Notes under the pieces: model-generated
What the model saw: the letters and a program-made list of their open reading frames with translations, nothing else
What the model was told of the DNA's origin: nothing
The model's database searches: none
Assembly: GCF_015350805.1 (NCBI RefSeq)
Contig: NZ_JADKSG010000002.1
Location: 248,001-312,000 of the forward strand
DNA length: 64,000 nt
Origin: Herbiconiux sp. VKM Ac-1786
GTDB lineage: Bacteria; Actinomycetota; Actinomycetes; Actinomycetales; Microbacteriaceae
Reading direction: 5' to 3'
Part shown: positions 51,858-64,000 of the stretch, piece after piece
Layout: every line of letters starts with the position of its first letter
Position numbering within the stretch: the first letter of the stretch is position 1
Translations under genes and position numbers: made by a program

Positions 51858-52709
51858 TCACGCGCGGCGGCCGCCCGGCGGCCATCGGTGCTCGCCCGCC
51901 CGCACGAGCTGCAGGATCACCCGCTCACACGCGTCCCAGTCGAACGTGACCTGCCGCCAGCTGAGCCGGAGCACGCGGTACCCGCGCCGGGCGAGCTCGA
52001 GTTCACGGCGCCGGTCCTCCTCGAACGCCGTCCTCGACGAGTGCCAGCGGTACCCGTCCAGCTCGAGCACAAGACGGTCGCCGAGCAGCAGATCGACCCG
52101 GCCGACGCCCTCGATCTGAACCTGGCTCCGCAGTCGCACCCGCCGACTCCGGATGCGCAACCGGGCCTTGGTCTCGAGGCCCGAGCCGGAGGCGGGGTCG
52201 ACCAGCAGCAGGTGGTCGCGGTGCACCACCGAAAGGGGCGCGAGGACCCGTCGCAATTCGGCTATCGTCACCAGGCCCTGGCCGAGCGCCGAGTCGAGCG
52301 ACACGACCGCATCCAGCCTCGACTGGCACAGGGATGCGCAGGCGAGCGCGGTCGCGACGTCGTCGAACGCGGTGCGCGGTGGGGCGATCAGCGCCGAGCG
52401 ATGCAACCGTGCGGCGCGATCCACCGAGCGGGAGTGGCCGGCATGCGGCGCGACCCGCACGTGCAGCCGGCCATCATGGGAGGTCCAGACCTGTCTGTGG
52501 TCGAGGAGCGAGGTGCAGCTGAGAGCGCCGCCGATGGTGACCGCATCGACCAGGAGGGCCGAGGCGTCGGGCAGGGCCACCCAGCCGCGTCGCAGTCGGC
52601 GGATGGTGCCGGCCCGAACGGCCGCGTCGACCTCCCGCGGTGGGATCCCGCGCCCGGCAAACGCCGATACTGACGCCACGCCTCCCGCCGACGCCAGCTG
52701 CTCGATCAT
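51858..52709 (-). CDS. AbiEi-like winged-helix and DUF559 (Vsr-like) domain protein
   Basis: A 283-residue protein common in actinobacteria. Residues about 5-60 resemble the AbiEi_4 type winged helix (GGVASVSAFAGRGIPPREVDAAVRAGTIRRLRRGWVAL). The C-terminal 110 residues match DUF559/Vsr-like restriction-endonuclease fold: RVDLLLGDRLVLELDGYRWH (Asp and Glu-x-Asp in the usual positions), FEEDRRRELELARRGYRVLRLSW. The fold is shared by very-short-patch endonucleases, but no activity is established. No AbiEii toxin partner is present. It is flanked by the palindrome and a 95-bp gap, so it appears monocistronic. Confidence 0.83.
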   Translation of the reverse strand: MIEQLASAGGVASVSAFAGRGIPPREVDAAVRAGTIRRLRRGWVALPDASALLVDAVTIGGALSCTSLLDHRQVWTSHDGRLHVRVAPHAGHSRSVDRAARLHRSALIAPPRTAFDDVATALACASLCQSRLDAVVSLDSALGQGLVTIAELRRVLAPLSVVHRDHLLLVDPASGSGLETKARLRIRSRRVRLRSQVQIEGVGRVDLLLGDRLVLELDGYRWHSSRTAFEEDRRRELELARRGYRVLRLSWRQVTFDWDACERVILQLVRAGEHRWPPGGRRA

Positions 52710-52804: not shown

Positions 52805-54139
52805 TCAGGGGCGGAGGTTGTCGCGGAGGGTGGGGCCGGGGTAGCGGGGCGCGAGGGCGCCGCGGCGGCGGAGTTCGGGCACCAGGAGCTCCGCGAGGTC
52901 GGCGACGCCCGAGGGTGCGGCGAGGGGGCTGGCGAACATGTAGCCGCCGCGCGAACCGGTGGCGGCGAAGTTCTGCTCGAGCTCGTCGGCGATGGAGGCG
53001 GCCGTTCCGCAGAGCGTGTGGTCGAGTCCGGTCGCGTGCCGCCAGCCGTGCTCGAACAGCTCCGCCCGCGTGAGCGACGCCGACGGCCCGAGCTCGGCGA
53101 CGAGTGCCCCGACGAAGCCGCCCTGGGCGCCCTGCACGCGCTTGACCTCGTCCATCAGCTCGCCGAGGGTGAAGCGCTCGGGCAGCGTCGAGAAGTCGAA
53201 GCCGACGTTGTGCGAGAGGAACGCGCCCACCGCCTCCTCGTGCCAGAACGCCGCGACCTCGTCGCGCCGAGCTGCCGCCTCACGGGCGCTCCGCCCCACG
53301 ATCGCCTGCGTCGCCCAGAGGATCCCGACTGAGGCGGGGTCCCTCCCCGCGGAGACGAGCGCCGCGTCCAGGGCAGAACGGTGCCGTTGCTGGCCGGCGA
53401 CACTCCCGCCGAAGCCGAACACGAGCTCCACGAACTCCGCCGAGGTCGCGATGCCCTTCGGCGAGTTGCCCGCCTGCACGAGTACGGGCGACCCCTGGGG
53501 GCTCGGCATGCTGGCCAGCGGCCCCTTCACGCGGAAGTACCGCCCGACGTGATCGATGGCGGCGATCTGCGAGGGGTCGGCGAACCGTCCCGACGAGCGG
53601 TCGGCGATGATCGCCGAGGCCGGTACGGATGCCCAGAGTGCCCGGCAGACGGCCATGAACTCGCTCATCCTGTCGTAGCGCTCGTCGTGGTCCATCCGCT
53701 CGTCGAAGCCGTAGTTGGCGGCGTCCGCCCCGCGCGCCGACGCCACGACGTTGAAGGCGATGCGCCCGTTCGTCACGTGGTCGAGCGAGTTCAGCAGCCG
53801 GGCCACGGTGAACGGATGCAGGAAGGTCGACGAGTAGGTCAGCCCGAAGCCGATGCGCTCGGTGACCGCGGCCATCGACGTCACGACCGGGCTCATGTCG
53901 TGGCGCGGCCACTGGATGCCCCACTCCAGCGCCGCGTCCATCGAACCGCGCCAGGTGTCGGGGATGCCGCTTCCGTCCCCGAAGAAGAGCAGGTCGACCC
54001 CGGCGCGCTCGGCGGTGCGGGCGATCTCCTGATAGATCCGCACGTCGGGGAAGCCGGCGCCGATCCACGACCCGGGCCGCGCCCAGCGCCCCTCGGTGTG
54101 GGCGAACGACAGGTCGAAGGCGGTGTGCATCCCGGTCAT
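52805..54139 (-). CDS. Flavin-dependent monooxygenase, NtaA/SnaA/DszA family (group C)
   Basis: A 444-residue luciferase-like (LLM) TIM-barrel enzyme of the NtaA/SnaA/SoxA/DszA subgroup: DLLFFGDGSGIPD, SPVVTSMAAVTERIGFGLTYSSTFLHPF, SLDHVTNGRIAFNVVAS, YDRMSEFMAVCRALW, and VLVQAGNSPKG. These enzymes use FMNH2 from a separate reductase and O2 to oxidise N- or S-containing small molecules. Its ATG at 54139 overlaps the RutB-like stop (ATGA), making it the last gene of a three-gene reverse operon. Substrate unknown. Confidence 0.9.
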   Translation of the reverse strand: MTGMHTAFDLSFAHTEGRWARPGSWIGAGFPDVRIYQEIARTAERAGVDLLFFGDGSGIPDTWRGSMDAALEWGIQWPRHDMSPVVTSMAAVTERIGFGLTYSSTFLHPFTVARLLNSLDHVTNGRIAFNVVASARGADAANYGFDERMDHDERYDRMSEFMAVCRALWASVPASAIIADRSSGRFADPSQIAAIDHVGRYFRVKGPLASMPSPQGSPVLVQAGNSPKGIATSAEFVELVFGFGGSVAGQQRHRSALDAALVSAGRDPASVGILWATQAIVGRSAREAAARRDEVAAFWHEEAVGAFLSHNVGFDFSTLPERFTLGELMDEVKRVQGAQGGFVGALVAELGPSASLTRAELFEHGWRHATGLDHTLCGTAASIADELEQNFAATGSRGGYMFASPLAAPSGVADLAELLVPELRRRGALAPRYPGPTLRDNLRP

Positions 54140-54783
54140 GCGGCGCTCCAGAGTCGTTCGATGTCCGCGACGCCCCGCACGTCGGCGACGTTCAGCGCCA
54201 TGCTCGCGAGTGCCGCCTCGTGCAGGGCGACGTCATAGGCGGCGGTCGCGTCCCGGGCGATGACGACCGGCAGATCGTGCTGGGCCGCATCCGTCGCCGT
54301 CGCCTGGATGCAGCACTCGGTCGTCAGCCCGGCGACCACCAGCCAGCCGGCCTGCAGCTCGTCGAGCACCCCGGCGAGGGAGGTCCCCACGAAACCGCTG
54401 TAGAACCGCTTCGGCACCCGGGGCTCATCGGGGCCGGGCGCGAGCCGCCACCATTCGGCACCGGGGCTCCCGGCCACACAGGGGAAGGCGTCGGTGGGGG
54501 AGTCGAGGTTCCCGGTCTGCAGCCACGCGCTCGCCCGCCAGGGACGCGCCGGGTCGTAGGCGAGCTCGACCCAGACCACCGGCACACCGAGCCGTCGCGC
54601 GGTCTCCACGAGCTCGCCGCACCGGGTGACTGCGGCGTCGACCGCGGCGAGGCCCGCCTCGTCGACACCCCATTCGGCCAAGAGCGCCGGGTCGGCGAAG
54701 TCGCGCTGCACGTCGACCAGCACGAGCACCGGATGCCCGGCCGCACGCAACCCGGCCCCGCGCACGTCCTCGTCCCCGCTCAT
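54136..54783 (-). CDS. Isochorismatase-like cysteine hydrolase, RutB-like
   Basis: A 215-residue cysteine hydrolase. The triad appears as Asp24 (VDVQRDF), Lys125 (RVPKRFYSGF) and Cys158 (GLTTECCIQ); Lys-to-Cys spacing of 33 equals that of E. coli RutB, and PKRFYSGF parallels its PKPRYSGF. RutB hydrolyses ureidoacrylate peracid in uracil breakdown; relatives cleave other amides or carbamates. Start ATG 54783 overlaps the stop of the RutA-like gene, and the gene end overlaps the second monooxygenase. The pairing with a RutA-like enzyme suggests an oxidise-then-hydrolyse pathway. Confidence 0.88.
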   Translation of the reverse strand: MSGDEDVRGAGLRAAGHPVLVLVDVQRDFADPALLAEWGVDEAGLAAVDAAVTRCGELVETARRLGVPVVWVELAYDPARPWRASAWLQTGNLDSPTDAFPCVAGSPGAEWWRLAPGPDEPRVPKRFYSGFVGTSLAGVLDELQAGWLVVAGLTTECCIQATATDAAQHDLPVVIARDATAAYDVALHEAALASMALNVADVRGVADIERLWSAA

Positions 54784-55892
54784 GCCCGCACCCCCTCGAG
54801 GCTTCGCAGCTCCGGCAGCACGGATTCCCCGAACACCGGAAGATCCGCCAGGTAGTCGGGGAAGATCAGCATCAGCCCGTCGAGCTCGGCGGTGTCCATC
54901 ACGGTCGCGATGTGCTCCACGACCCTCGACGGACCGCCCGCGACGTACACGGTCTGGAAGGCCTGCTCGCCGTCGGCGCCCTCCGCCCAGGCGAGCGCCC
55001 GCTCCTCGGGCATGCCCCATGACTTCCGCATGTTCGCCAGGGCCACCCGGTCGAGCCCGCGGCCGTACTCCGTGGCCCGGGCGGTGGCGTCGGCATCCGT
55101 GTCACCGAGCACCACCGTGAGCATCGCGTAGGTCTTGACCGAGCGCCCGAGCGAGGCCGCTCGGTCGTGCACGTCGCGGGAGGAGGCCCGCATGTCCTCG
55201 AGGGTGTCGGCACCGAGGAACGCGCCGTCGGCGTACTGCGCCTGGAAGGCCCGGCCCGCCGGCGAGGTCGCGGCGTTGATGATCTCGGGCCTTATGACCG
55301 GATGCGGCCGGGACTGGCAGTCGGTGAGGGTGTAGAACTCGCCGGCGTGCGTCACCGAGTCCTCGCTCCAGAGCCGCGTGACGAGGTGGGCCCACTCCGC
55401 GGTCATGCGGTAGCGCTCGTCCTTGGTCATGTCCGCGTCCCATATTCCCATCTGCTCGAACTCGTCGGCGTAGGAGCCATTCACGATGTTCATGCCGGCG
55501 CGGCCGTGACTGATCTGCTGCAGGGTCGTGAAGACCTTCGCGGCGAAGGCCGGGTTCTGCATGTTGGCGTGGATCGTGGCCCAGACCTTCACCCTCTCGG
55601 TGGCCTCGGCGATGCCCGCCATCATCGTCATCGACTCGATGGTCTCGCCCCAGTGGTCGGTCGAGCCGCCGAAGCCGCGCCACTTGGCCATGGCCATCAC
55701 GAAGTCGAGGCCGATCTCCTCGGCGACCTTCGCGATCTGCTTGTTGTGGTCGTAGTCGGCGGGCGGGTACGGGGCCGTCGTCGAGACGAGCCATCCGCCG
55801 GCAGCGTTGGGCAGGAAGACGCCGTACTCGCGGGGCGAAACGGGCGACGCAGGCGACGCGGGCGGCACGGGCGAAACAGGTGATGCGGACAT
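54780..55892 (-). CDS. Flavin-dependent monooxygenase, RutA-like (group C)
   Basis: A 370-residue LLM flavoenzyme. After a 20-residue Ser/Pro/Val low-complexity start (VSPVPPASPAS), it matches RutA closely in order: GVFLPNAAGGWLVSTTAP, LDFVMAMAKWRGFGGSTDHW, ESMTMMAGIAEATERVKVWAT, HGRAGMNIVNG, EFEQMGIW and LTDCQSRPHPV. RutA uses reduced flavin and O2 for ring-opening amide cleavage of uracil. Strong ribosome site GGAGGAG before ATG 55892, and a TATACT -10 about 105 bp upstream. First gene of the reverse operon. RutC-F homologues are not adjacent, so the substrate may be another cyclic amide. Confidence 0.9.
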   Translation of the reverse strand: MSASPVSPVPPASPASPVSPREYGVFLPNAAGGWLVSTTAPYPPADYDHNKQIAKVAEEIGLDFVMAMAKWRGFGGSTDHWGETIESMTMMAGIAEATERVKVWATIHANMQNPAFAAKVFTTLQQISHGRAGMNIVNGSYADEFEQMGIWDADMTKDERYRMTAEWAHLVTRLWSEDSVTHAGEFYTLTDCQSRPHPVIRPEIINAATSPAGRAFQAQYADGAFLGADTLEDMRASSRDVHDRAASLGRSVKTYAMLTVVLGDTDADATARATEYGRGLDRVALANMRKSWGMPEERALAWAEGADGEQAFQTVYVAGGPSRVVEHIATVMDTAELDGLMLIFPDYLADLPVFGESVLPELRSLEGVRA

Positions 55893-56025
55893 GGTGCTCC
55901 TCCAGTTCGAGTGCGCCGGCGGACGCCGACGAACCAGGACACGGTGGGAAGCGTGCGATGCGAACCGTGGTTGCGTCGCGGAGTCCAGCCTGGTCCGAGT
56001 ATAGGAACCCCGCGTTTCGGGCGGG
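55893..56025 (-). promoter_or_regulatory. Probable promoter of the RutA/RutB-like operon
   Basis: The 133-bp gap contains, on the reverse strand, TATACT at 56003-55998 as a good -10 element and GGAGGAG immediately before the ATG at 55892. No strong -35 is seen, and no TAAAACG operator was found here, unlike the other two promoters of the island. Confidence 0.45.
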
Positions 56026-56448
56026 TTACGCCGCGGACGACTCCGTCAGCGGCTCCACGCGGCCGGGACCCTGCACCACGAGAACGGCGATGCGGAGGTC
56101 GCGCGCGGCGGCGGCGAGCCAGCCGCGGCGGGCGAGGAGGGTGGCGACGGTGGGGCTGACGCAGAGCACGGCGCGAGCATCCGGAACCAGGGCCTGCCGC
56201 ACCCAGACCAGCTTGAACAGATCGGCCGCCACCTTGTTGCGCAGGGTCGACTTCACCGCCCCGCCGTTCAGCACGAACTGGGCGACGACGGTGCCCTCGG
56301 CGTCCATCGCCTCGACCTCGACGGCGGTGCCGTCGGGGAGGGTCAGCCGACGGGGCCGGAGGGCGGTGCCGAGGTGCTCCGCGAGGGCCGCGGCCGCCTC
56401 GGCCTCCGGGCTCCCGGGGCCGTAGCGCGTGCTGTCCGTCTCGTTCAT
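56026..56448 (-). CDS. Hypothetical protein (140 aa)
   Basis: Not recognised. A 140-residue cytoplasmic protein with an alternating strand/helix pattern (TAVEVEAMDAEGTVVAQFVLNGG, NKVAADLFKLVWVRQALVP, DARAVLCVSPTVATLLARRGW, DLRIAVLVVQG). The E-x-E and the strand-helix order recall a PD-(D/E)XK-like fold, but this is only an impression. It lies between the two arms of the monooxygenase island, ends 133 bp upstream of the RutA-like gene on the same strand, and is divergent from the ABC binding-protein gene across the first LacI-type operator. Confidence 0.7.
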   Translation of the reverse strand: MNETDSTRYGPGSPEAEAAAALAEHLGTALRPRRLTLPDGTAVEVEAMDAEGTVVAQFVLNGGAVKSTLRNKVAADLFKLVWVRQALVPDARAVLCVSPTVATLLARRGWLAAAARDLRIAVLVVQGPGRVEPLTESSAA

Positions 56449-56506
56449 CTCACCACCCGCGAACAGGATGCCAGTGCAGCGGGCGGCGCAAAGAGTCCGT
56501 GACGAA

Positions 56507-56561
56507 CCTTTTACACGCTCGAAATAAAACGATTTACATCGGGGCGCGGGGTGTTGTTAGT
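56507..56561 (+). promoter_or_regulatory. Promoter with LacI-type operator of the ABC importer operon
   Basis: TAAAACGATTTA at 56525-56536 is a near-perfect CG-centred palindrome. Next to it, 56507-56521 read in reverse (CGAGCGTGTAAAAGG) matches 13 of 15 bases of the sequence flanking the second operator near 61540. TTTACA at 56533-56538 could be a -35 with GTTAGT at 56556-56561 as -10 (17-bp spacer). The operator overlapping the -35 implies repression. Confidence 0.6.
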
Positions 56562-56669
56562 GTGCCGAACACGCGATCGCTCACGCAGCTCCATCACGGG
56601 CACGCCGGCTCCACGAAATTCCCCCCTCAGTCAGCCGGGACCTCCCCGGCGCCTCTCGGAAGGCCTCGT

Positions 56670-57806
56670 ATGTCACCTGCACCGCTCCTGAAGACCAAGC
56701 CCTCGCTCCTGAAGACCAAGCCCCTCGTGGCCCTCGCGGCCCTCTCCGCCTCAGCCCTCGTGCTCACCGGATGCTCGGGCTCGAGCACCGCCTCCGAGCC
56801 GAGCGCCTCGGCCTCGGGCGGCAGCGACCTGATCAGCGCCGAGCGCTGCGCCGAGAACGAGGCGGCCGGCCCGATCACCTTCCTGACCTCGTTCGGCTAC
56901 GTCGCGTCGGCCGGCCTCCTCGACGTGATCACGGCCAAGGAACGGGGTGTGTTCGAGGACCTGTGCCTCGACGTCACCCTGCAGCCCGGCTCGAACAACG
57001 CCCAGCTCGTGAGCGCCGGCACCGCCCAGTTCGCCGGGGTCGGCAGCCCCTCCGACGTGCTCGTCGCCATCGACAATGGCGCCGACATCTCGGGAGTCGC
57101 GACCTACGGCAACACCGTGGCGATCACCTTGATGACGATGACCGACGGCGGACCGGCGTCGCTCAAGGACTTCAGCGGCCTGACCGCCGGCTACAAGGGT
57201 GCGATCCCGCCGCAGATCCAGGCGATGTTCCTCGCCGAGGACGTCGACCCGGCGACGATCAACTGGGTGTCGGTGGGTTATGACCCGACCATCCTGCCGA
57301 ACGACCAGGTGCAGGCGCTGACGGGGTACAAGTCGAACGAGCCGCTGGCGCTCAAGGCTCAGGACTACGACATCACGGAGTGGGACCCGGCCGAGTACGG
57401 CATCGAGTCGGCCTTCAACACCCAGATCGTCAACAACACCTTCAAGGAGGAGCACCCCACCGCGGTCGAGGACTTCCTGCGCGCGAGCCTGTACTCCTAC
57501 GACTGGATCAACGAGTCCGACGCGAACCTCGACGAGGCGCTGTCGTACGCCGAGGCGCTGTCGGATGCGGGCTACGACCTCGAGTCGAGCCGCGCCCGCT
57601 GGGCCACGGAGGTCGGCCTGATCGACGAGAGCCAGCCCGAAGGCCTGCCGATCGGCGGCGAGACCGTCGAGCAGTGGACGCCGGAGGCCGACATGCTCGT
57701 GCAGTTCGACCTCGTCAAGGCCGAGCCCGACGTCGAGGCCGCGATCGACCCGAGCTTCATCGAGGCCATCCACGACGGCACCGAGCTCATCTGGCCCGCT
57801 CCGTGA
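56670..57806 (+). CDS. ABC transporter substrate-binding lipoprotein (NMT1/THI5/SsuA-type)
   Basis: A 378-residue binding protein. The Sec lipoprotein signal ends at Cys35 (LVLTGC), preceded by a duplicated LLKTKP motif. The mature part begins ITFLTSFGYVASAGLLDVITAKERGVFEDLCLDVTLQPGSNN and has SAGTAQFAGVGSPSDVLVA, the pattern of THI5/SsuA-like proteins that bind pyrimidines, riboflavin precursors, sulfonates or related small molecules. ATG 56670 is chosen over the open upstream frame because it gives a signal peptide and follows GGAAGG. It heads the five-gene forward operon and is controlled by the adjacent LacI-type operator. Confidence 0.88.
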   Translation: MSPAPLLKTKPSLLKTKPLVALAALSASALVLTGCSGSSTASEPSASASGGSDLISAERCAENEAAGPITFLTSFGYVASAGLLDVITAKERGVFEDLCLDVTLQPGSNNAQLVSAGTAQFAGVGSPSDVLVAIDNGADISGVATYGNTVAITLMTMTDGGPASLKDFSGLTAGYKGAIPPQIQAMFLAEDVDPATINWVSVGYDPTILPNDQVQALTGYKSNEPLALKAQDYDITEWDPAEYGIESAFNTQIVNNTFKEEHPTAVEDFLRASLYSYDWINESDANLDEALSYAEALSDAGYDLESSRARWATEVGLIDESQPEGLPIGGETVEQWTPEADMLVQFDLVKAEPDVEAAIDPSFIEAIHDGTELIWPAP

Positions 57807-58885
57807 GAGCCTGGCTGCAGACGGGGTTCGGGGGGCCGGAGGTGCGGCGGCTGACCGAGGTCGCCGCACCCGCTCCCGCCGACGGCGAGGTGACGGTGCG
57901 GATGCTCGCGGTCGCCCTCAATCGACTCGACGTGCTGCAGCGGCGGGAGCCCGTCATCCCGGGCATGACCGTGCCCCACGTGGCGGGGATGGACCTGATC
58001 GGGGAGGTCGTGGCGGCGGGAGCGGCGGACGACCTGCTCGGCGCCGTGGTGCTGATCGATCCGGTCGTCAGCTGCGGCCGGTGCGAGCTGTGCCTCGCCG
58101 AGACGCCGACGTACTGCGAGGCGTTCCAGACCATCGGCTCCACGCGCGACGGGGGGATGGCCGAACTGGTCACGGTCCCGGCGCGCAACTGCACCGTGGT
58201 GGACGTGGCGACCGACGACTCCGACTCGCTCGCGCGGCTCGCCGCCGTGCCGGTCGCCGGCGCGACCGCCTGGCGAGGGCTGCTCGGAGCCGGCGGGCTG
58301 CGCGCGGGGGAGACCGTCGTCATCCCCGGCGCCGGCTCGGGTCTCGGGGCGGCGGGCATCCAGATCGCGCTCGCCCACGCGGCCGACGTGATCGCCCTCG
58401 TCTCGGGCCCCGCCAAGAAGACGCGGGCCGAGCAGAGCGGCGCCCGGCTCGTGATCGACCGCACGGCCACCGACGACTGGGTCGCCGAGGTGCTCGGCGC
58501 CACGGACGGCCGGGGTGCCGACCTGGTCTGGGACCACGTCGGCGGACGCTTCCTCGGCCAGGCCCTCCGCGCCACCCGCGCGGGCGGCCGGGTCGTGCTC
58601 TCCGGCACCACCGACGGGCTCGACACCGAGCTGCACCTTCCCGACCTCTACCAGCGCGGCCGCAGCATCATCGGGCACGGCAGCTACAGCCGGGCCGACA
58701 TGGCGGCGGCGGTCGCGGCGTTCGGCACCGGCCACTTCGAGGTCGTGATCGACAGCGTGTGGGGGTTCGAGCAGCTTCCCGAGGCCGAGGCGCGGCTCGA
58801 GAGCGACGCCTTCTTCGGCAAGATCGTCGTGCTCGGCCCGTCGTTCTCCACCTCCACCGCACCCGAACGGAAGGACGCCGCATGA
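57803..58885 (+). CDS. MDR-family alcohol dehydrogenase/quinone reductase-like protein
   Basis: A 360-residue medium-chain dehydrogenase. The structural zinc lobe is intact (Cys-x2-Cys-x2-Cys-x7-Cys in SCGRCELCLAETPTYC), the Rossmann motif is VIPGAGSGLGAAGIQIAL, and GRGADLVWDHVGG follows. The usual catalytic zinc ligands are altered: NRLDVL has Asp where Cys is normal, and the GHE motif reads AGMDLIGEV, so it may work like a zinc-free quinone oxidoreductase. The GTG start overlaps the binding-protein stop; the end overlaps the ATPase start. Its place inside the transporter operon suggests a role in the same catabolic route. Confidence 0.87.
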   Translation: MRAWLQTGFGGPEVRRLTEVAAPAPADGEVTVRMLAVALNRLDVLQRREPVIPGMTVPHVAGMDLIGEVVAAGAADDLLGAVVLIDPVVSCGRCELCLAETPTYCEAFQTIGSTRDGGMAELVTVPARNCTVVDVATDDSDSLARLAAVPVAGATAWRGLLGAGGLRAGETVVIPGAGSGLGAAGIQIALAHAADVIALVSGPAKKTRAEQSGARLVIDRTATDDWVAEVLGATDGRGADLVWDHVGGRFLGQALRATRAGGRVVLSGTTDGLDTELHLPDLYQRGRSIIGHGSYSRADMAAAVAAFGTGHFEVVIDSVWGFEQLPEAEARLESDAFFGKIVVLGPSFSTSTAPERKDAA

Positions 58886-59700
58886 GCGACACAGCCATGA
58901 GCGACACGACGGCGCAGATCGAACTCACCGGGGTCGGCCGCACCTACACCCGCGGCAAGAAGACCGTGGAGGCGCTCACGGGCGTCGACCTCACCATCGA
59001 GCAGGGGGAGTTCATCACCCTCTTCGGCCCGTCGGGCTGCGGCAAATCGACGCTGCTGCGGCTGATCGCCGGGCTCGACACCCAGACCACGGGAGAGATC
59101 TCGATCTTCGGCAGCACCCCGAAACAGGCGTCGTCGCGAAAGGACATCGCGTGGATCCCGCAGTCCTCGGCGCTCCTGCCCTGGCTCGACATCGAGTCGA
59201 ACGCCTCGCTGTCGTCGGTGGTCAACACCCGCGCCGACCGCAGCGGTGCGACCACCCGGCGGCCGGAGGCCGCCGTCGGCATCCTCGAGGAGGTGGGGCT
59301 CGGCGACTTCCGCGCCTCCCGCCCCGACCAGCTCTCCGGCGGGATGCGGCAGCGTGCCTCGATCGCGCGCGGATTCGCGCAGGGGGCGCCGCTGATGTTG
59401 ATGGACGAACCGTTCTCGGCACTGGACGAGCTCACCCGCGACACCCTGCGCATCCGTCTGCTGGAGCTCTGGGAGCACCACCGCAAGACGATCGTCTTCG
59501 TCACCCACTCGGCGATGGAGGCGGTGCTCTTGAGCGACCGGGTCGTGGTAATGAGCCCACGGCCGGGCCGCATCCGCGAGGTGGTCGACATCGACCTGCC
59601 CCGGCCGCGCACCTGGGAGCTCACGGAGACGTCGGAGTTCACCGCCAAGGTCGCGCAGGTCAAACAGATCCTCTGGAGCGCCTGGGAGGGTGACGAATGA
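58882..59700 (+). CDS. ABC transporter ATP-binding protein (SsuB/TauB/ThiZ-type)
   Basis: A 272-residue importer ATPase: Walker A GPSGCGKST, signature LSGGMRQRASIARGFAQGAPLMLMDEPFSALD, switch His in VTHSAMEAV, and the SPRPGRIREVVDIDLPRPR tail typical of nitrate/sulfonate/taurine/thiamine-precursor importers. ATG 58882 overlaps the dehydrogenase stop (a second ATG at 58897 is possible). It overlaps the permease start by 4 bp. Confidence 0.92.
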   Translation: MSDTAMSDTTAQIELTGVGRTYTRGKKTVEALTGVDLTIEQGEFITLFGPSGCGKSTLLRLIAGLDTQTTGEISIFGSTPKQASSRKDIAWIPQSSALLPWLDIESNASLSSVVNTRADRSGATTRRPEAAVGILEEVGLGDFRASRPDQLSGGMRQRASIARGFAQGAPLMLMDEPFSALDELTRDTLRIRLLELWEHHRKTIVFVTHSAMEAVLLSDRVVVMSPRPGRIREVVDIDLPRPRTWELTETSEFTAKVAQVKQILWSAWEGDE

Positions 59701-60512
59701 CCGTCGGAATCGATCCCCTGAACCCCGCGGTGGCCGTCGCGCCCGCGCGCCGCGGCCGCCCGCGGATGTCCTCGCGCACGGGAGGGGCCCTGCTCACGGT
59801 GGGCGCCCCGCTGGCCCTGTTCGTGCTGCTCGCGATCGCCTGGCAGTGGACCGCGGCGACGTTCAAGAGCGTGCTGCCGCCGATCCAGGACATCGTGACC
59901 GACATCGCGGGGCGGCCGGAGTTCTATCTCGAGAACCTCCTCGTGACGCTCGAGGCCGCGCTCCTCGGCTTCGTGATCGGCGTGGTCGTCGCGCTGCTGC
60001 TGGCTGCGGCGATCGTGCACTTCCGCTTCCTGCGGGCCGCGATCATGCCCGTGGCGCTGCTGCTGAACGTCACGCCGATCGTCGCGATCTCTCCCGCTCT
60101 CGTGGTGGCGTTCGGGTTCAACCAGATCCCGCACGTGATCGTCGCGGCGCTCAGCGCCTTCTTCCCGACCCTGATCAACTCGATCACCGGGCTCCGCGCG
60201 GTCGACCCGCAGGCCCTGGAGGTGTTCGACGCGATGTCGGCGTCGCGCACGGAGGTGTTCTTCCGGCTCCGGGTGCCGTCGAGCCTGCCCTACATCTTCG
60301 CCGGGGCGCGTCTGTCGGTGGCGGCGGCCGTGATCGGCGCGGTGGTGTCGGAGTTCACCGGCTCGAGCAAGGGGATCGGTGCGGTGATCGTGATGGCGAC
60401 CACGTACCTCAACCTGCCGCAGATGTGGGCGGCGATCTTCTTCTCGGCCCTCACCACGCTGGCGCTGCTCGGTCTGGTGGGGCTCCTCGAACGCCTGGTG
60501 GTGCGCTGGTAG
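59697..60512 (+). CDS. ABC transporter permease (SsuC/ThiX-type)
   Basis: A 271-residue membrane permease with about six helices; the ATPase-docking loop is FDAMSASRTEVFFRLRVPSSLPYIFAGARLS near residue 180. It matches the binding-protein-dependent importer family that pairs with THI5/SsuA-like proteins. ATG 59697 overlaps the ATPase stop (ATGA). A LacI regulator follows after 9 bp. Confidence 0.92.
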   Translation: MTVGIDPLNPAVAVAPARRGRPRMSSRTGGALLTVGAPLALFVLLAIAWQWTAATFKSVLPPIQDIVTDIAGRPEFYLENLLVTLEAALLGFVIGVVVALLLAAAIVHFRFLRAAIMPVALLLNVTPIVAISPALVVAFGFNQIPHVIVAALSAFFPTLINSITGLRAVDPQALEVFDAMSASRTEVFFRLRVPSSLPYIFAGARLSVAAAVIGAVVSEFTGSSKGIGAVIVMATTYLNLPQMWAAIFFSALTTLALLGLVGLLERLVVRW

Positions 60513-60521
60513 CGTCGGCAC

Positions 60522-61550
60522 ATGAAGATCGTCCCGCCCGGCCGCGGCCCGGTCACGCTCCGCGACGTCGCCGAGCACGCGCGGGTGAGCATCGCCACCG
60601 CGAGCAACGCGTTGACAGGCGCGCGCCGCGTCGGCCCCGACTCCGTGGAGCGGGTGCTCCGCTCGGCGTCCGAGCTCGGCTACCGGCCGAACGGGGTCGC
60701 GCGGTCGCTCCGCACGGGGCTCCACCGGAGCATCGGCCTCGTCATCCCCGACGTGACGAACCCGTTCTGGGCGGGCATGGTGAGCGTGATCGAGGGGCTG
60801 GCCGACGAGTCGGGCTTCCAGCTCTCGCTCGTCAACACCGGCTTCGACGCCGGGCGCGAGTCGGCGTCGCTGACCCGGCTCGCCGGCTCGGTCGACGGCG
60901 TGCTGCTGTTCTCCACGAACCCGAGGGCGACGATGCTCGCTCCGGCTCTCGCCGGCGGCCTGCCGATCGTGGCCGTCGACGAGGGCTTCGAGCTCGAGGG
61001 CATCGGCGGCGTGCACTCCGACAACGCCGGCGGGGGACGGCTCGCCGCCGAACATCTCGTCGACGTCGGCGGCACGTTCTTCGGCCTGCTCGCCGGCCCG
61101 GCCAGCCTCACCACGGCCGCCCAGCGCAGCGCCGGCTTCGCCGCGGGGCTCGCCGGGCGCGGGGTCGACCCCGCCCGCCTCCATCGGGTGACCGCTCCCT
61201 ACTCCTTCGAGGGCGGCCGCGAGGGGGTGCGCCGGATGCTCGCCCGGCACCCCGAGGTCGACGCCCTCTTCGCCTGCACCGACAACCAGGCCATCGGCGC
61301 CACCTTCGAGGCGCACGACCTCGGCCGGGTCGTCCCCGACGACCTGCTCGTCTGCGGATTCGACGACATCAGCTGGGCGTCCCGCATCACCCCGGCCCTC
61401 ACCACGCTGCGCCAGGACTCCGCCGGCATGGCCCGCCGCGCGTTCGAGCAGCTGGTCGAGCTCGTCACCCACGGGGGAGCGCCCGAGGTGACGGTCTTCC
61501 CCGTGACACTCGTGGAACGGGCGTCGACGCGTCGCGTTACGAGTGTGTAA
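60522..61550 (+). CDS. LacI family transcriptional regulator
   Basis: A 342-residue repressor. Residues about 6-60 are the LacI HTH and hinge (VTLRDVAEHARVSIATASNALTG ... RPNGVARSLRTG), followed by a periplasmic-binding-protein-like effector domain (IGLVIPDVTNPFWAGMV, VDGVLLFSTNP, ALFACTDNQAIGA, CGFDDISWASRITPALTT). It is encoded in the importer operon, 9 bp after the permease. Two CG-centred palindromes flank the operon: one at the promoter (56525-56536) and one overlapping its own stop codon (61548-61559). It is the obvious candidate to bind both and be induced by the pathway substrate. Confidence 0.93.
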   Translation: MKIVPPGRGPVTLRDVAEHARVSIATASNALTGARRVGPDSVERVLRSASELGYRPNGVARSLRTGLHRSIGLVIPDVTNPFWAGMVSVIEGLADESGFQLSLVNTGFDAGRESASLTRLAGSVDGVLLFSTNPRATMLAPALAGGLPIVAVDEGFELEGIGGVHSDNAGGGRLAAEHLVDVGGTFFGLLAGPASLTTAAQRSAGFAAGLAGRGVDPARLHRVTAPYSFEGGREGVRRMLARHPEVDALFACTDNQAIGATFEAHDLGRVVPDDLLVCGFDDISWASRITPALTTLRQDSAGMARRAFEQLVELVTHGGAPEVTVFPVTLVERASTRRVTSV

Positions 61551-61559
61551 AACGTTTTA
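61540..61559. promoter_or_regulatory. LacI-type operator upstream of the third monooxygenase
   Basis: TAAAACGTTTTA at 61548-61559 is a perfect 12-bp palindrome with a CG centre, preceded by CGAGTGTG. The TAA stop of the lacI-like gene forms its first three bases. It sits 43 bp before ATG 61603, placing the monooxygenase gene under the same repressor. Confidence 0.7.
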
Positions 61560-61602
61560 GGGTGGCTCGCGGCGGCCCGATCGCCTCGGCGATGCTGGAG
61601 GC

Positions 61603-62967
61603 ATGGTCAAGCCCCTCTCCCTCGGCGTGTTCGAGATCCTCACCCCCTCCAACGGCGTCCCGACGTGGCGGCACCCGAACGGCCGGGGCGACCGCTACGG
61701 CAGCCCCGAGTACTGGGCCGGGCTCGCGAAGACGCTCGACGACGCCGGCTTCGACTTCATCCTCTTCGCCGACAGCTACGGCTACCCGCAGATCGACGGC
61801 GACGTGCCCGAGGAGGTGCTGACGCACGGCATCCTGTTCCCGGGCTACGACCCGATGCTGCTCGTCGCTGCGCTCTCGCAGGCCGCCCCCTCGCTCGGCA
61901 TCGTGGTGACCTCGTCGACCTCGCTCGAGCAGCCGTTTCCCACGGCCCGGCGCTTCGCCACCCTCGACGCCTTCACGAACGGGCACATCGGCTGGAACGT
62001 CGTCACCGGCAGCACCGCCCAGGTCACCGAGCAGCTGTTCGGCATCACCCAGTTCGACCACGACGCCCGCTACGACGTGGCCGACGAGTTCGTCGACCTC
62101 GCGCGCAGCCTGCTCGAGGACGTCTGGGACGACGACGCCTGGGTCTTCGACCGCGAGAGCAACACGCTGATCGACCCCGTGCGGATCCGCCCCGTGTCGT
62201 ACCGCAGCGAGCACTTCTCCAGCCACGGGCTGTTCAAGGTGCCGCCGGGTCGGCAGCGCACCCCGGTGCTGTTCCAGGCCGGCATGTCGGGGCGGGGCCG
62301 CGACTTCGGCGCGCGAAACGCCGAGGCGATGTTCATCCAGGGCCAGACCGCCGAGCAGGCGCGCACGGCCTCGCAGGACATCCGTTCCCGGGTCGCCGCC
62401 GCGGGCCGCGACCCGCACGACCTCAAGATCATCAGCGGCGTCACGGTCACGGTGGCCCCGACCCGCGAGGAGGCGCTCGCGAAGCGCAGGGAGCTCGAGG
62501 AGCAGTTCTCGATGGACGACGCGGCGGTGCTGTTCGCGGGCTTCACCGGCATCGACCTGCGCGCCCTCGACCGCTCGATGCCGATCGCGGACATCGCCGG
62601 CACCGACCAGGGCCACACCCCGCTCGACCGGTACCGCTCCATGCCCGGCATCGAGACGGTGCAGGACGTGCTCGACGCCTTCCGGGTGCAGGAGCGCGGC
62701 TTCGTGATCACCGGCTCGCCGGCCGAGGTCGCCGAGGAGCTCATCGCCACGGCCGAGACCGCCGACCTCGACGGCTATCTGCTCGAGCCCACCTTCGGCG
62801 ACTCCGGGGCCTACGAGGAGTTCATCGCCCTGGTGCTGCCCGAACTCGAGGCCCGCGGTGCGTGGCGGCAGCCCGACCGCTCGCTCACCCTGCGCGAACG
62901 CCTCGGCTTCCCCGGCCCGCACCCGGGCTTCCGCCCCTCGACGAAGAACCTCGAGCAGGGCGCCTGA
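61603..62967 (+). CDS. Flavin-dependent monooxygenase, NtaA/SnaA family (group C)
   Basis: A 454-residue LLM enzyme of the NtaA/SnaA/SoxA subgroup: DAGFDFILFADSYGYP, SLGIVVTSSTSLEQPFPTARRFATLD, NGHIGWNVVTGSTAQ, YDVADEFVDLARSLLEDVWD, VLFQAGMSGRGRDFGARNAEAMF, and a C-terminal GSPAEVAEELIATAET segment. It would use externally supplied FMNH2 and O2. It differs clearly from the other two monooxygenases in the island. It is separated from lacI by 52 bp and carries its own LacI-type operator. A convergent gene ends 4 bp after its stop. Confidence 0.9.
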   Translation: MVKPLSLGVFEILTPSNGVPTWRHPNGRGDRYGSPEYWAGLAKTLDDAGFDFILFADSYGYPQIDGDVPEEVLTHGILFPGYDPMLLVAALSQAAPSLGIVVTSSTSLEQPFPTARRFATLDAFTNGHIGWNVVTGSTAQVTEQLFGITQFDHDARYDVADEFVDLARSLLEDVWDDDAWVFDRESNTLIDPVRIRPVSYRSEHFSSHGLFKVPPGRQRTPVLFQAGMSGRGRDFGARNAEAMFIQGQTAEQARTASQDIRSRVAAAGRDPHDLKIISGVTVTVAPTREEALAKRRELEEQFSMDDAAVLFAGFTGIDLRALDRSMPIADIAGTDQGHTPLDRYRSMPGIETVQDVLDAFRVQERGFVITGSPAEVAEELIATAETADLDGYLLEPTFGDSGAYEEFIALVLPELEARGAWRQPDRSLTLRERLGFPGPHPGFRPSTKNLEQGA

Positions 62968-62971
62968 GCCG

Positions 62972-64000
<1,029 letters not shown>

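Follow-up and report, generated by a model that had tools for sequence, protein, structure and literature searches.

Introduction

The closest described relatives of the locus reported here belong to several systems: the Rut (uracil) pathway of Escherichia coli, the DszA/DmoA/NtaA group of flavin monooxygenases, the riboflavin lyase RcaE of Microbacterium maritypicum, the ThiY/THI5-type binding proteins, and plasmid operons of Pseudomonadota (MFS transporter, RutA-like protein, hydrolase, flavin reductase) for which we know of no assigned function. Two papers place RutA residues T105 and N134 in the oxygen pocket and W139 and E292 on the substrate side (PMC10005588, PMC7662398), and an account of a reconstituted lumichrome route describes hydrolytic ring opening with P450 and Rieske enzymes (PMC12746152). 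Here we describe an island of ten genes at positions 52805-62967 of a 64,000-nucleotide stretch of Herbiconiux sp. VKM Ac-1786 (the window), in which a reverse operon for RutA-like (P0003), RutB-like (P0002) and NtaA-like (P0001) enzymes, with the gene of a small protein (hyp140) on the same strand, diverges from a forward arm encoding a THI5-type ABC importer (binding protein, ATPase and permease), an MDR dehydrogenase and a LacI-family regulator, followed by a third monooxygenase, LLM3 (P0009). The region was translated and scanned against Pfam and NCBIfam (Table 1).

We judge the chances somewhat better than even that this island is one LacI-type regulon, made up of a widespread core module and a recruited forward arm with LLM3, that oxidises an imported N-heterocycle. 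The catabolic-looking linkage of an importer, oxygenases and an amide hydrolase, to which a preliminary description of this DNA had pointed, is borne out. That description knew of no pathway with this gene set, and we likewise found no description of the pathway or of the operon in the open-licence literature; a description elsewhere is possible.

Conservation of the core module

The family sample contained 120 genomes including that of the window (G000), and the class sample 345 genomes. Named relatives are the best 80 of 324 loci from a contig scan with the RutA-like protein, and partner genes were counted in 72 named loci with more than 5 kb before and more than 3 kb after the RutA-like gene. 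The two sets overlap and cannot be counted as independent, since at least six named loci (L079, L080, L081, L091, L129 and L141) are records that also belong to the family sample.

The core, consisting of hyp140, a THI5-type ABC importer and the RutA-like, RutB-like and NtaA-like enzymes, is widespread in Actinomycetota. The RutA-like protein matches 12 of the 120 family genomes at E<=1e-60, of which 11, the window's included, hold orthologs (>=56% identity; 56-93% in the ten relatives), the twelfth match (G080) being a 36% paralog only. All ten relatives have the RutB-like and NtaA-like genes directly downstream of the RutA-like gene, and in each the same stretch also encodes a binding protein, a permease and an ATPase. 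Among the 72 well-flanked named loci the RutA-like gene is accompanied by the ATPase in 70, the permease in 68, the binding protein in 68, the RutB-like gene in 61, hyp140 in 60 (within 9 kb) and the NtaA-like gene in 54, with all six partners together in 49. The closest named relative of the RutA-like protein is that of Herbiconiux gentiana (93%). The best 80 loci come from Herbiconiux, Agromyces, Cryobacterium, Agreia, Curtobacterium, Leifsonia, Subtercola, Promicromonospora, Amycolatopsis, Saccharothrix, Nonomuraea, Actinoplanes, Streptomyces, Nocardioides, Nocardiopsis and others, and all 80 carry organism names that we take to be actinobacterial.

A paralogous set elsewhere in the window's own genome (L041, G000:C1:1562000-1571000) includes an asparaginase-like gene, RutA-like (37%) and NtaA-like (55%) genes, a GntR/UTRA regulator, a gene that clusters with the MFS family, and genes that cluster with the FMN_red and Flavin_Reduct families. 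RutA-like/NtaA-like pairs of this type are also present in G007, G011, G080 and G093.

Relationship to the uracil and thiamin pathways

The best NCBIfam match of P0003 is RutA (TIGR03612), with 237.9 bits against a cut-off of 498.3, so it is not RutA itself, and it is 34% identical to E. coli RutA. Residues T105, N134, V136 and F224 of RutA correspond to T106, N135, V137 and F225 of P0003 and are invariant in the 11 orthologs; W139 is replaced by S or A, and E292 by K, R, V, L or A, across the RutA-like orthologs. In a RutA-family tree of 35 rows, with support from the Shimodaira-Hasegawa-like approximate likelihood ratio test only, annotated RutA proteins (3 rows, 99) stand apart from the core clade of 19 rows (98); four Pseudomonadota RutA-like proteins join the latter (97). 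P0002 matches PF00857 with 121.8 bits (cut-off 27) and RutB (TIGR03614) with 36.9 bits (cut-off 377.95); it is 25% identical to E. coli RutB, with the catalytic Asp, Lys and Cys positions of RutB aligned, and 31-37% identical to hydrolases near three of the four Pseudomonadota RutA-like proteins. RutC-F genes are absent beside the RutA-like and RutB-like genes, the ten genes of the island being otherwise assigned or, for hyp140, without a family, and searches of the best 80 of 324 core loci gave no match to a RidA query and one weak match to a RutD-like query. The scores, the substrate-side residues and the tree rule out the uracil pathway, in agreement with the preliminary description.

Two plasmid loci, L196 (93-9478, Rhizobium) and L197 (42-9490, Paracoccaceae), have a RutA-like gene near TenA, RidA-type and ABC importer genes, with amidohydrolase or deaminase genes also nearby and a YlmB-type deformylase named in L197. 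These sets are possibly a breakdown route for the thiamin pyrimidine, and their RutA-like proteins belong to another clade than the core. In the best 80 of 324 core loci the TenA and melamine-deaminase-like queries gave no match and the YlmB query a single weak one (33% over 150 aa), which speaks against thiamin itself as the substrate; with the plasmid linkage belonging to the other clade, an assignment to thiamin breakdown by linkage is rejected. A query with the Paraburkholderia gene (annotated hypothetical) that occupies the peptidase M20 position of the Pseudomonadota operons also had no match in these 80 loci.

Forward arm and a candidate LacI regulon

The trio and importer travel together in all ten relatives, and the case that would refute the preliminary description, parts that are never found together, does not hold for this core. 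Within the family sample LLM3 at >=83% identity adjoins the core only in G000, G011, G093 and G026, and the MDR gene is found in these four and in G029; G011 and G093 belong to the window's own genus, and G026 and G029 to other genera. Throughout the genomes searched, close copies of LLM3, LacI and MDR sit with the core only in the window's genus and that of G026, and among the best 80 of 324 named loci only two, both Herbiconiux, have all three. The three monooxygenases, assigned earlier to one route, are thus not one old set, and the third looks like a lineage-specific addition to the regulon. The space between the arms contains an SDR gene in G026 and, in G093, a PNPOx-like gene plus DNA that can be aligned with the SDR gene.

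The regulator has a LacI helix-turn-helix domain (PF00356, 40.4 bits, cut-off 27). Both intergenic regions align across G000, G011, G093 and G026 and have a palindrome with a central CG in common. The sequence TAAAWCGWTTTA occurs at exactly two places in the 3.89 Mb genome of the window strain (both in Table 1) and at exactly two, in corresponding positions, in each of G011, G093 and G026, with no occurrence of the reversed control in any genome scanned. It is absent from all seven core carriers that lack the forward arm (G072, G079, G037, G052, G060, G090 and G007); in G090 a LacI-family gene of 34% identity lies close to the core. In G029 two near-copies (1 and 2 mismatches) lie shortly before the conserved part of the binding-protein gene, and 16.5 kb of this genome contains three sites at <=3 mismatches where 0.42 are expected. 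Because two copies are present in four of four arm carriers and none in seven of seven carriers without the arm, the island looks like one regulon, and this pattern is strong evidence for a LacI regulon of three transcription units with the palindromes as putative operators. The pair of palindromes speaks for joint control.

Several observations weigh against a single regulon acting on one compound. The NtaA-like gene is missing from 18 of the 72 well-flanked loci, including those of Nocardiopsis (L143, L148-L150 and L153-L158), and the RutB-like gene from 11, and in L093, L113 and L120 the RutA-like gene has no partner from the set. No RutA ortholog, RutB-like gene or hyp140 accompanies the relatives of LLM3 in G087, G090, G437 and G556, for each of which 20 kb was covered. 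G029 has the binding protein, MDR, ATPase, permease, MFS and LacI genes in this order without the trio (54-62% identity for the five relatives of window genes); this 16.5 kb stretch contains no core enzyme and no hyp140, and has SDR and PNPOx-like genes alongside. The core in turn occurs without the forward arm in the other carriers seen, so the two arms may serve different compounds. A promoter scan found no sigma-70-like promoter at either palindrome, and none of the ten genes of the cluster encodes a flavin reductase.

A rival explanation is that two unrelated pathways lie side by side, the forward arm for one compound and the reverse operon for another. In its favor, G029 has the forward arm by itself, next to SDR, PNPOx-like and MFS genes and with the palindrome near-copies, and elsewhere the core has its own importer. 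Against it, all four genomes with both arms have a single such binding protein each (E<=1e-30), and in each of them one palindrome copy separates the arms and the other precedes LLM3, with no third. We regard two separate pathways as quite unlikely. Because the forward arm occurs without the core in G029, and LLM3, LacI and MDR stand beside the core in only four of the sampled family genomes, the sequences suggest that the single regulon arose by fusion of two modules, with the forward arm replacing the usual importer of the core.

Binding protein and NtaA-type monooxygenases

The binding protein matches PF09084 with 95.6 bits (cut-off 20.5) and the SsuA family (TIGR01728) with 42.7 bits, below the cut-off of 163.5. 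Its predicted structure, with a predicted local distance difference test score (pLDDT) of 88.5, matches ThiY (3ix1) best among solved proteins; a thiamin-binding protein and THI5 come next, and SsuA ranks below them. By sequence and predicted fold it is nearer to the ThiY/THI5 pyrimidine binders than to SsuA; of the THI5/SsuA assignment made initially, the THI5 side is thus the better fit. P0001 and P0009 both pass the cut-off of TIGR03860 (279.7), with 359.2 and 379.6 bits, and fall in separate clades of the tree, which, with RutA as the best match of P0003, agrees with the claim of three different monooxygenases. The solved enzyme nearest to P0001 is DszA (238.1 bits). In the tree DszA stands, on a long branch of unsure position, beside a single clade made up of P0001, the orthologs of P0001 and an own-genome paralog.

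These matches bear on the main rival explanation, sulfur scavenging of an ssu/sfn-like or Bacillus subtilis ytm-like kind, in which an organosulfur compound would be imported and sulfite freed by monooxygenation. It draws on the weak SsuA-family match and the SsuA structures among the fold matches of the binding protein, on the closeness of P0001 to DszA, on SfnG as the second-best match of P0003 (172.7 bits, cut-off 382.95), and on one reductase type of the relatives, whose best match, below threshold, is SsuE; a flavokinase next to enzymes of this kind is also reminiscent of RibR in the B. subtilis ytm operon. The isochorismatase-family hydrolase, however, has no obvious role in sulfur release, the binding protein is nearer to ThiY, the thiamin-binding protein and THI5 than to SsuA in both respects, and the recurrent neighbor families that were annotated (10 of those listed) include no sulfur-assimilation gene. 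We consider this explanation unlikely.

LLM3 and RcaE share a clade (100/99), in which RcaE is the outermost branch at 38% identity and an own-genome paralog lies between the two; with RcaE in this position, the tree rules out LLM3 as an RcaE ortholog.

Flavin supply

Extra genes that recur in the relatives encode two flavin reductase families, MFS transporters, and flavokinase domains either alone or fused to MFS. The best NCBIfam matches of the reductases are SsuE, HpaC and the like, all below cut-off. A flavin reductase of some kind is present somewhere in 48 of the 70 named loci with 5 kb on both sides, and a direct search finds flavokinase domains in 19 of the best 80 of 324 core loci (19 of the 70). 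In L129 (13024-14883) an MFS transporter with a C-terminal riboflavin kinase domain follows the NtaA-like gene.

Flavin or lumichrome catabolism could use the same genes, with LLM3 acting like RcaE, the RutA-like enzyme opening the uracil-like ring and the RutB-like enzyme removing the ureide. The clade of LLM3 and the 19 loci with flavokinase domains are in its favor, and RutA chemistry would fit a pyrimidinedione ring. Its probability is nonetheless very low: RcaE is distant from LLM3 and separated from it by a paralog, LLM3 lies outside the core, flavokinase and reductases can equally be read as supplying flavin mononucleotide (FMN), and the reconstituted lumichrome route (PMC12746152) opens the ring hydrolytically and with different enzymes. 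As FMN supply explains it equally well, the flavokinase is not accepted as proof of flavin breakdown.

The companion protein hyp140

The hyp140 protein has no match in Pfam or NCBIfam. A profile search of the 120 family genomes (up to 33 candidates scored per genome) finds it in 11, exactly those with a RutA-like ortholog. Among the 345 class genomes hyp140 is present in at least 16, a RutA ortholog (E<=1e-105) in at least 10 and both in at least 9, these counts being lower bounds with up to 11 (hyp140) and 5 (RutA) candidates scored per genome; in all nine shared genomes the two genes are on one contig within about 5.3 kb. G323 has a RutA match without hyp140, and in seven class genomes a hyp140-like protein is found where no RutA match is. 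In six of these seven it scores no higher than 103.2 bits. The remaining genome, G156, has two copies: the first adjoins importer genes on a contig that has no RutA-like gene, and the second (L187) is part of a longer frame. Exclusivity of hyp140 to the operon thus holds in the family sample and fails in the class. The longer frame (L187:9663-10310) has 215 residues, and its N-terminal part resembles a winged helix-turn-helix by eye.

A model built from 57 sequences (mean pLDDT 91.7) has Foldseek matches to 2okf and the XisH-family protein 2inb (probability 1.00, TMq 0.55 and 0.53) and also to Can2, Card1 and EndoMS, with a best E of 5.4e-3 and none at E<=0.001; we take all five to be PD-(D/E)XK proteins. 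The third strand, where by our own placing of the (D/E)XK motif E-x-K would stand, has Q57-x-V59, with Q57 in 56 of 57 rows, and the classical motif is absent from this strand. D49 is kept in 54 of 57 rows and K79, in the next helix, in all 57. The model suggests a non-classical or inactive nuclease fold. A bolder proposal is that the core is a new pathway in which RutA-type N5-peroxide chemistry opens the pyrimidine- or thiamin-like ring of an imported compound, and that hyp140 is a new operon-bound family whose nuclease fold has been turned to a non-nuclease role (sensor, regulator or chaperone) that the pathway needs; this we put forward as tentative and, as a whole, rather doubtful.

Locus organization

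Every gene named in the preliminary description is present and both of its ATGA overlaps in the reverse trio are confirmed (tcat on the + strand at 54780-54783 and 54136-54139); hyp140 and the two palindromes had been overlooked. The binding-protein reading frame opening at 56499 is probably over-long. All three monooxygenases match PF00296, yet they fall into different groups, and with 29 PF00296 places in the 3.89 Mb genome the enzymes by themselves are unremarkable; it is the conserved order and the common palindrome that exceed chance.

Table 1. Features of the Herbiconiux island, in window coordinates.
Feature	Coordinates	Strand	Remarks
NtaA-like group C flavin monooxygenase, P0001	52805-54139	-	TIGR03860; third gene of the reverse operon
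RutB-like isochorismatase-family cysteine hydrolase, P0002	54136-54783	-	D/K/C positions kept
RutA-like group C flavin monooxygenase, P0003	54780-55892	-	Oxygen pocket kept, substrate-side residues changed
hyp140, conserved companion protein	56026-56448	-	140 codons; PD-(D/E)XK-like predicted fold
LacI-type palindrome TAAAACGATTTA	56525-56536		Between the divergent arms; putative binding site
THI5/NMT1-type ABC binding protein	56670-57806	+	Probable lipoprotein start at 56670
MDR (zinc-type) dehydrogenase/quinone reductase-like	57803-58885	+	
ABC transporter ATPase	58882-59700	+	
ABC transporter permease	59697-60512	+	
LacI-family regulator	60522-61550	+	
LacI-type palindrome TAAAACGTTTTA	61548-61559		Before the third monooxygenase, overlaps the LacI stop codon; putative binding site
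Third monooxygenase LLM3, P0009	61603-62967	+	TIGR03860; clade also holding RcaE; probable lineage-specific addition

The island is adjoined on the left by a gene for a 283-residue protein (51858-52709, -) whose C-terminus resembles a DUF559-type endonuclease by eye, and on the right by a gene for a glycine-rich repetitive protein (62972-63991, -) that is convergent with the third monooxygenase.

Proposed role and comparison with known systems

From the gene content, its conservation, the palindrome pair and the kept oxygen-pocket and hydrolase residues we infer the following reactions, in this order. The importer would bring in an N-heterocyclic compound, our best guess being a pyrimidine- or thiamin-like class; this choice of class rests on the fold of the binding protein, the RutA-like/hydrolase pair, and the other-clade RutA-like genes beside thiamin-breakdown genes on two plasmids. 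One or both NtaA-type enzymes may oxidise the imported compound or a side group, after which the RutA-like enzyme, dependent on reduced FMN (FMNH2), would cleave a ring amide C-N bond through a flavin-N5-peroxide. The RutB-like enzyme would hydrolyse the resulting linear amide or carbamoyl group, and the MDR enzyme may handle a released carbonyl or enone. FMNH2 would be supplied in trans by reductases encoded elsewhere in the genome, whereas a number of relatives have them inside the operon, and LacI would bind to shut all three transcription units until the inducer appears.

Carried by many genera of actinobacteria (soil-, plant- and antibiotic-producing), the gene set would then represent a new oxidative ring-opening route. 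A candidate regulon with two palindromes per genome makes its inducer searchable, and the enzymes on offer combine a RutA-like oxygen pocket with a substrate pocket that is not RutA-like, together with the conserved companion hyp140.

The island resembles the E. coli Rut pathway in having a RutA-family oxygenase beside an isochorismatase-family hydrolase, with the oxygen-pocket and D/K/C positions kept, and departs from it in the changed W139 and E292, in scores far below the TIGR03612 and TIGR03614 cut-offs, and in the separate clade of annotated RutA (99). P0001 and P0009 resemble the DszA/DmoA/NtaA group in exceeding the TIGR03860 cut-off, whereas the clade of P0001 has no characterized member in the tree. 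RcaE is the nearest solved relative of LLM3 and lies in the same clade, although as its outermost branch and at 38% identity. ThiY/THI5-type proteins are the best matches of the binding protein in sequence and fold, with 24% identity over the fold match. The Pseudomonadota plasmid operons of Acinetobacter and Paraburkholderia combine MFS and RutA-like genes with the genes of an isochorismatase-family or cysteine hydrolase and of a flavin reductase; between the last two stands one more gene, annotated as peptidase M20 in Acinetobacter and as hypothetical in Paraburkholderia. They have no annotated NtaA-like gene or hyp140, but their RutA-like proteins, two of the four Pseudomonadota rows of the tree, belong to the group that is sister to the core clade (97), and their hydrolases share 31% and 35% identity with P0002.

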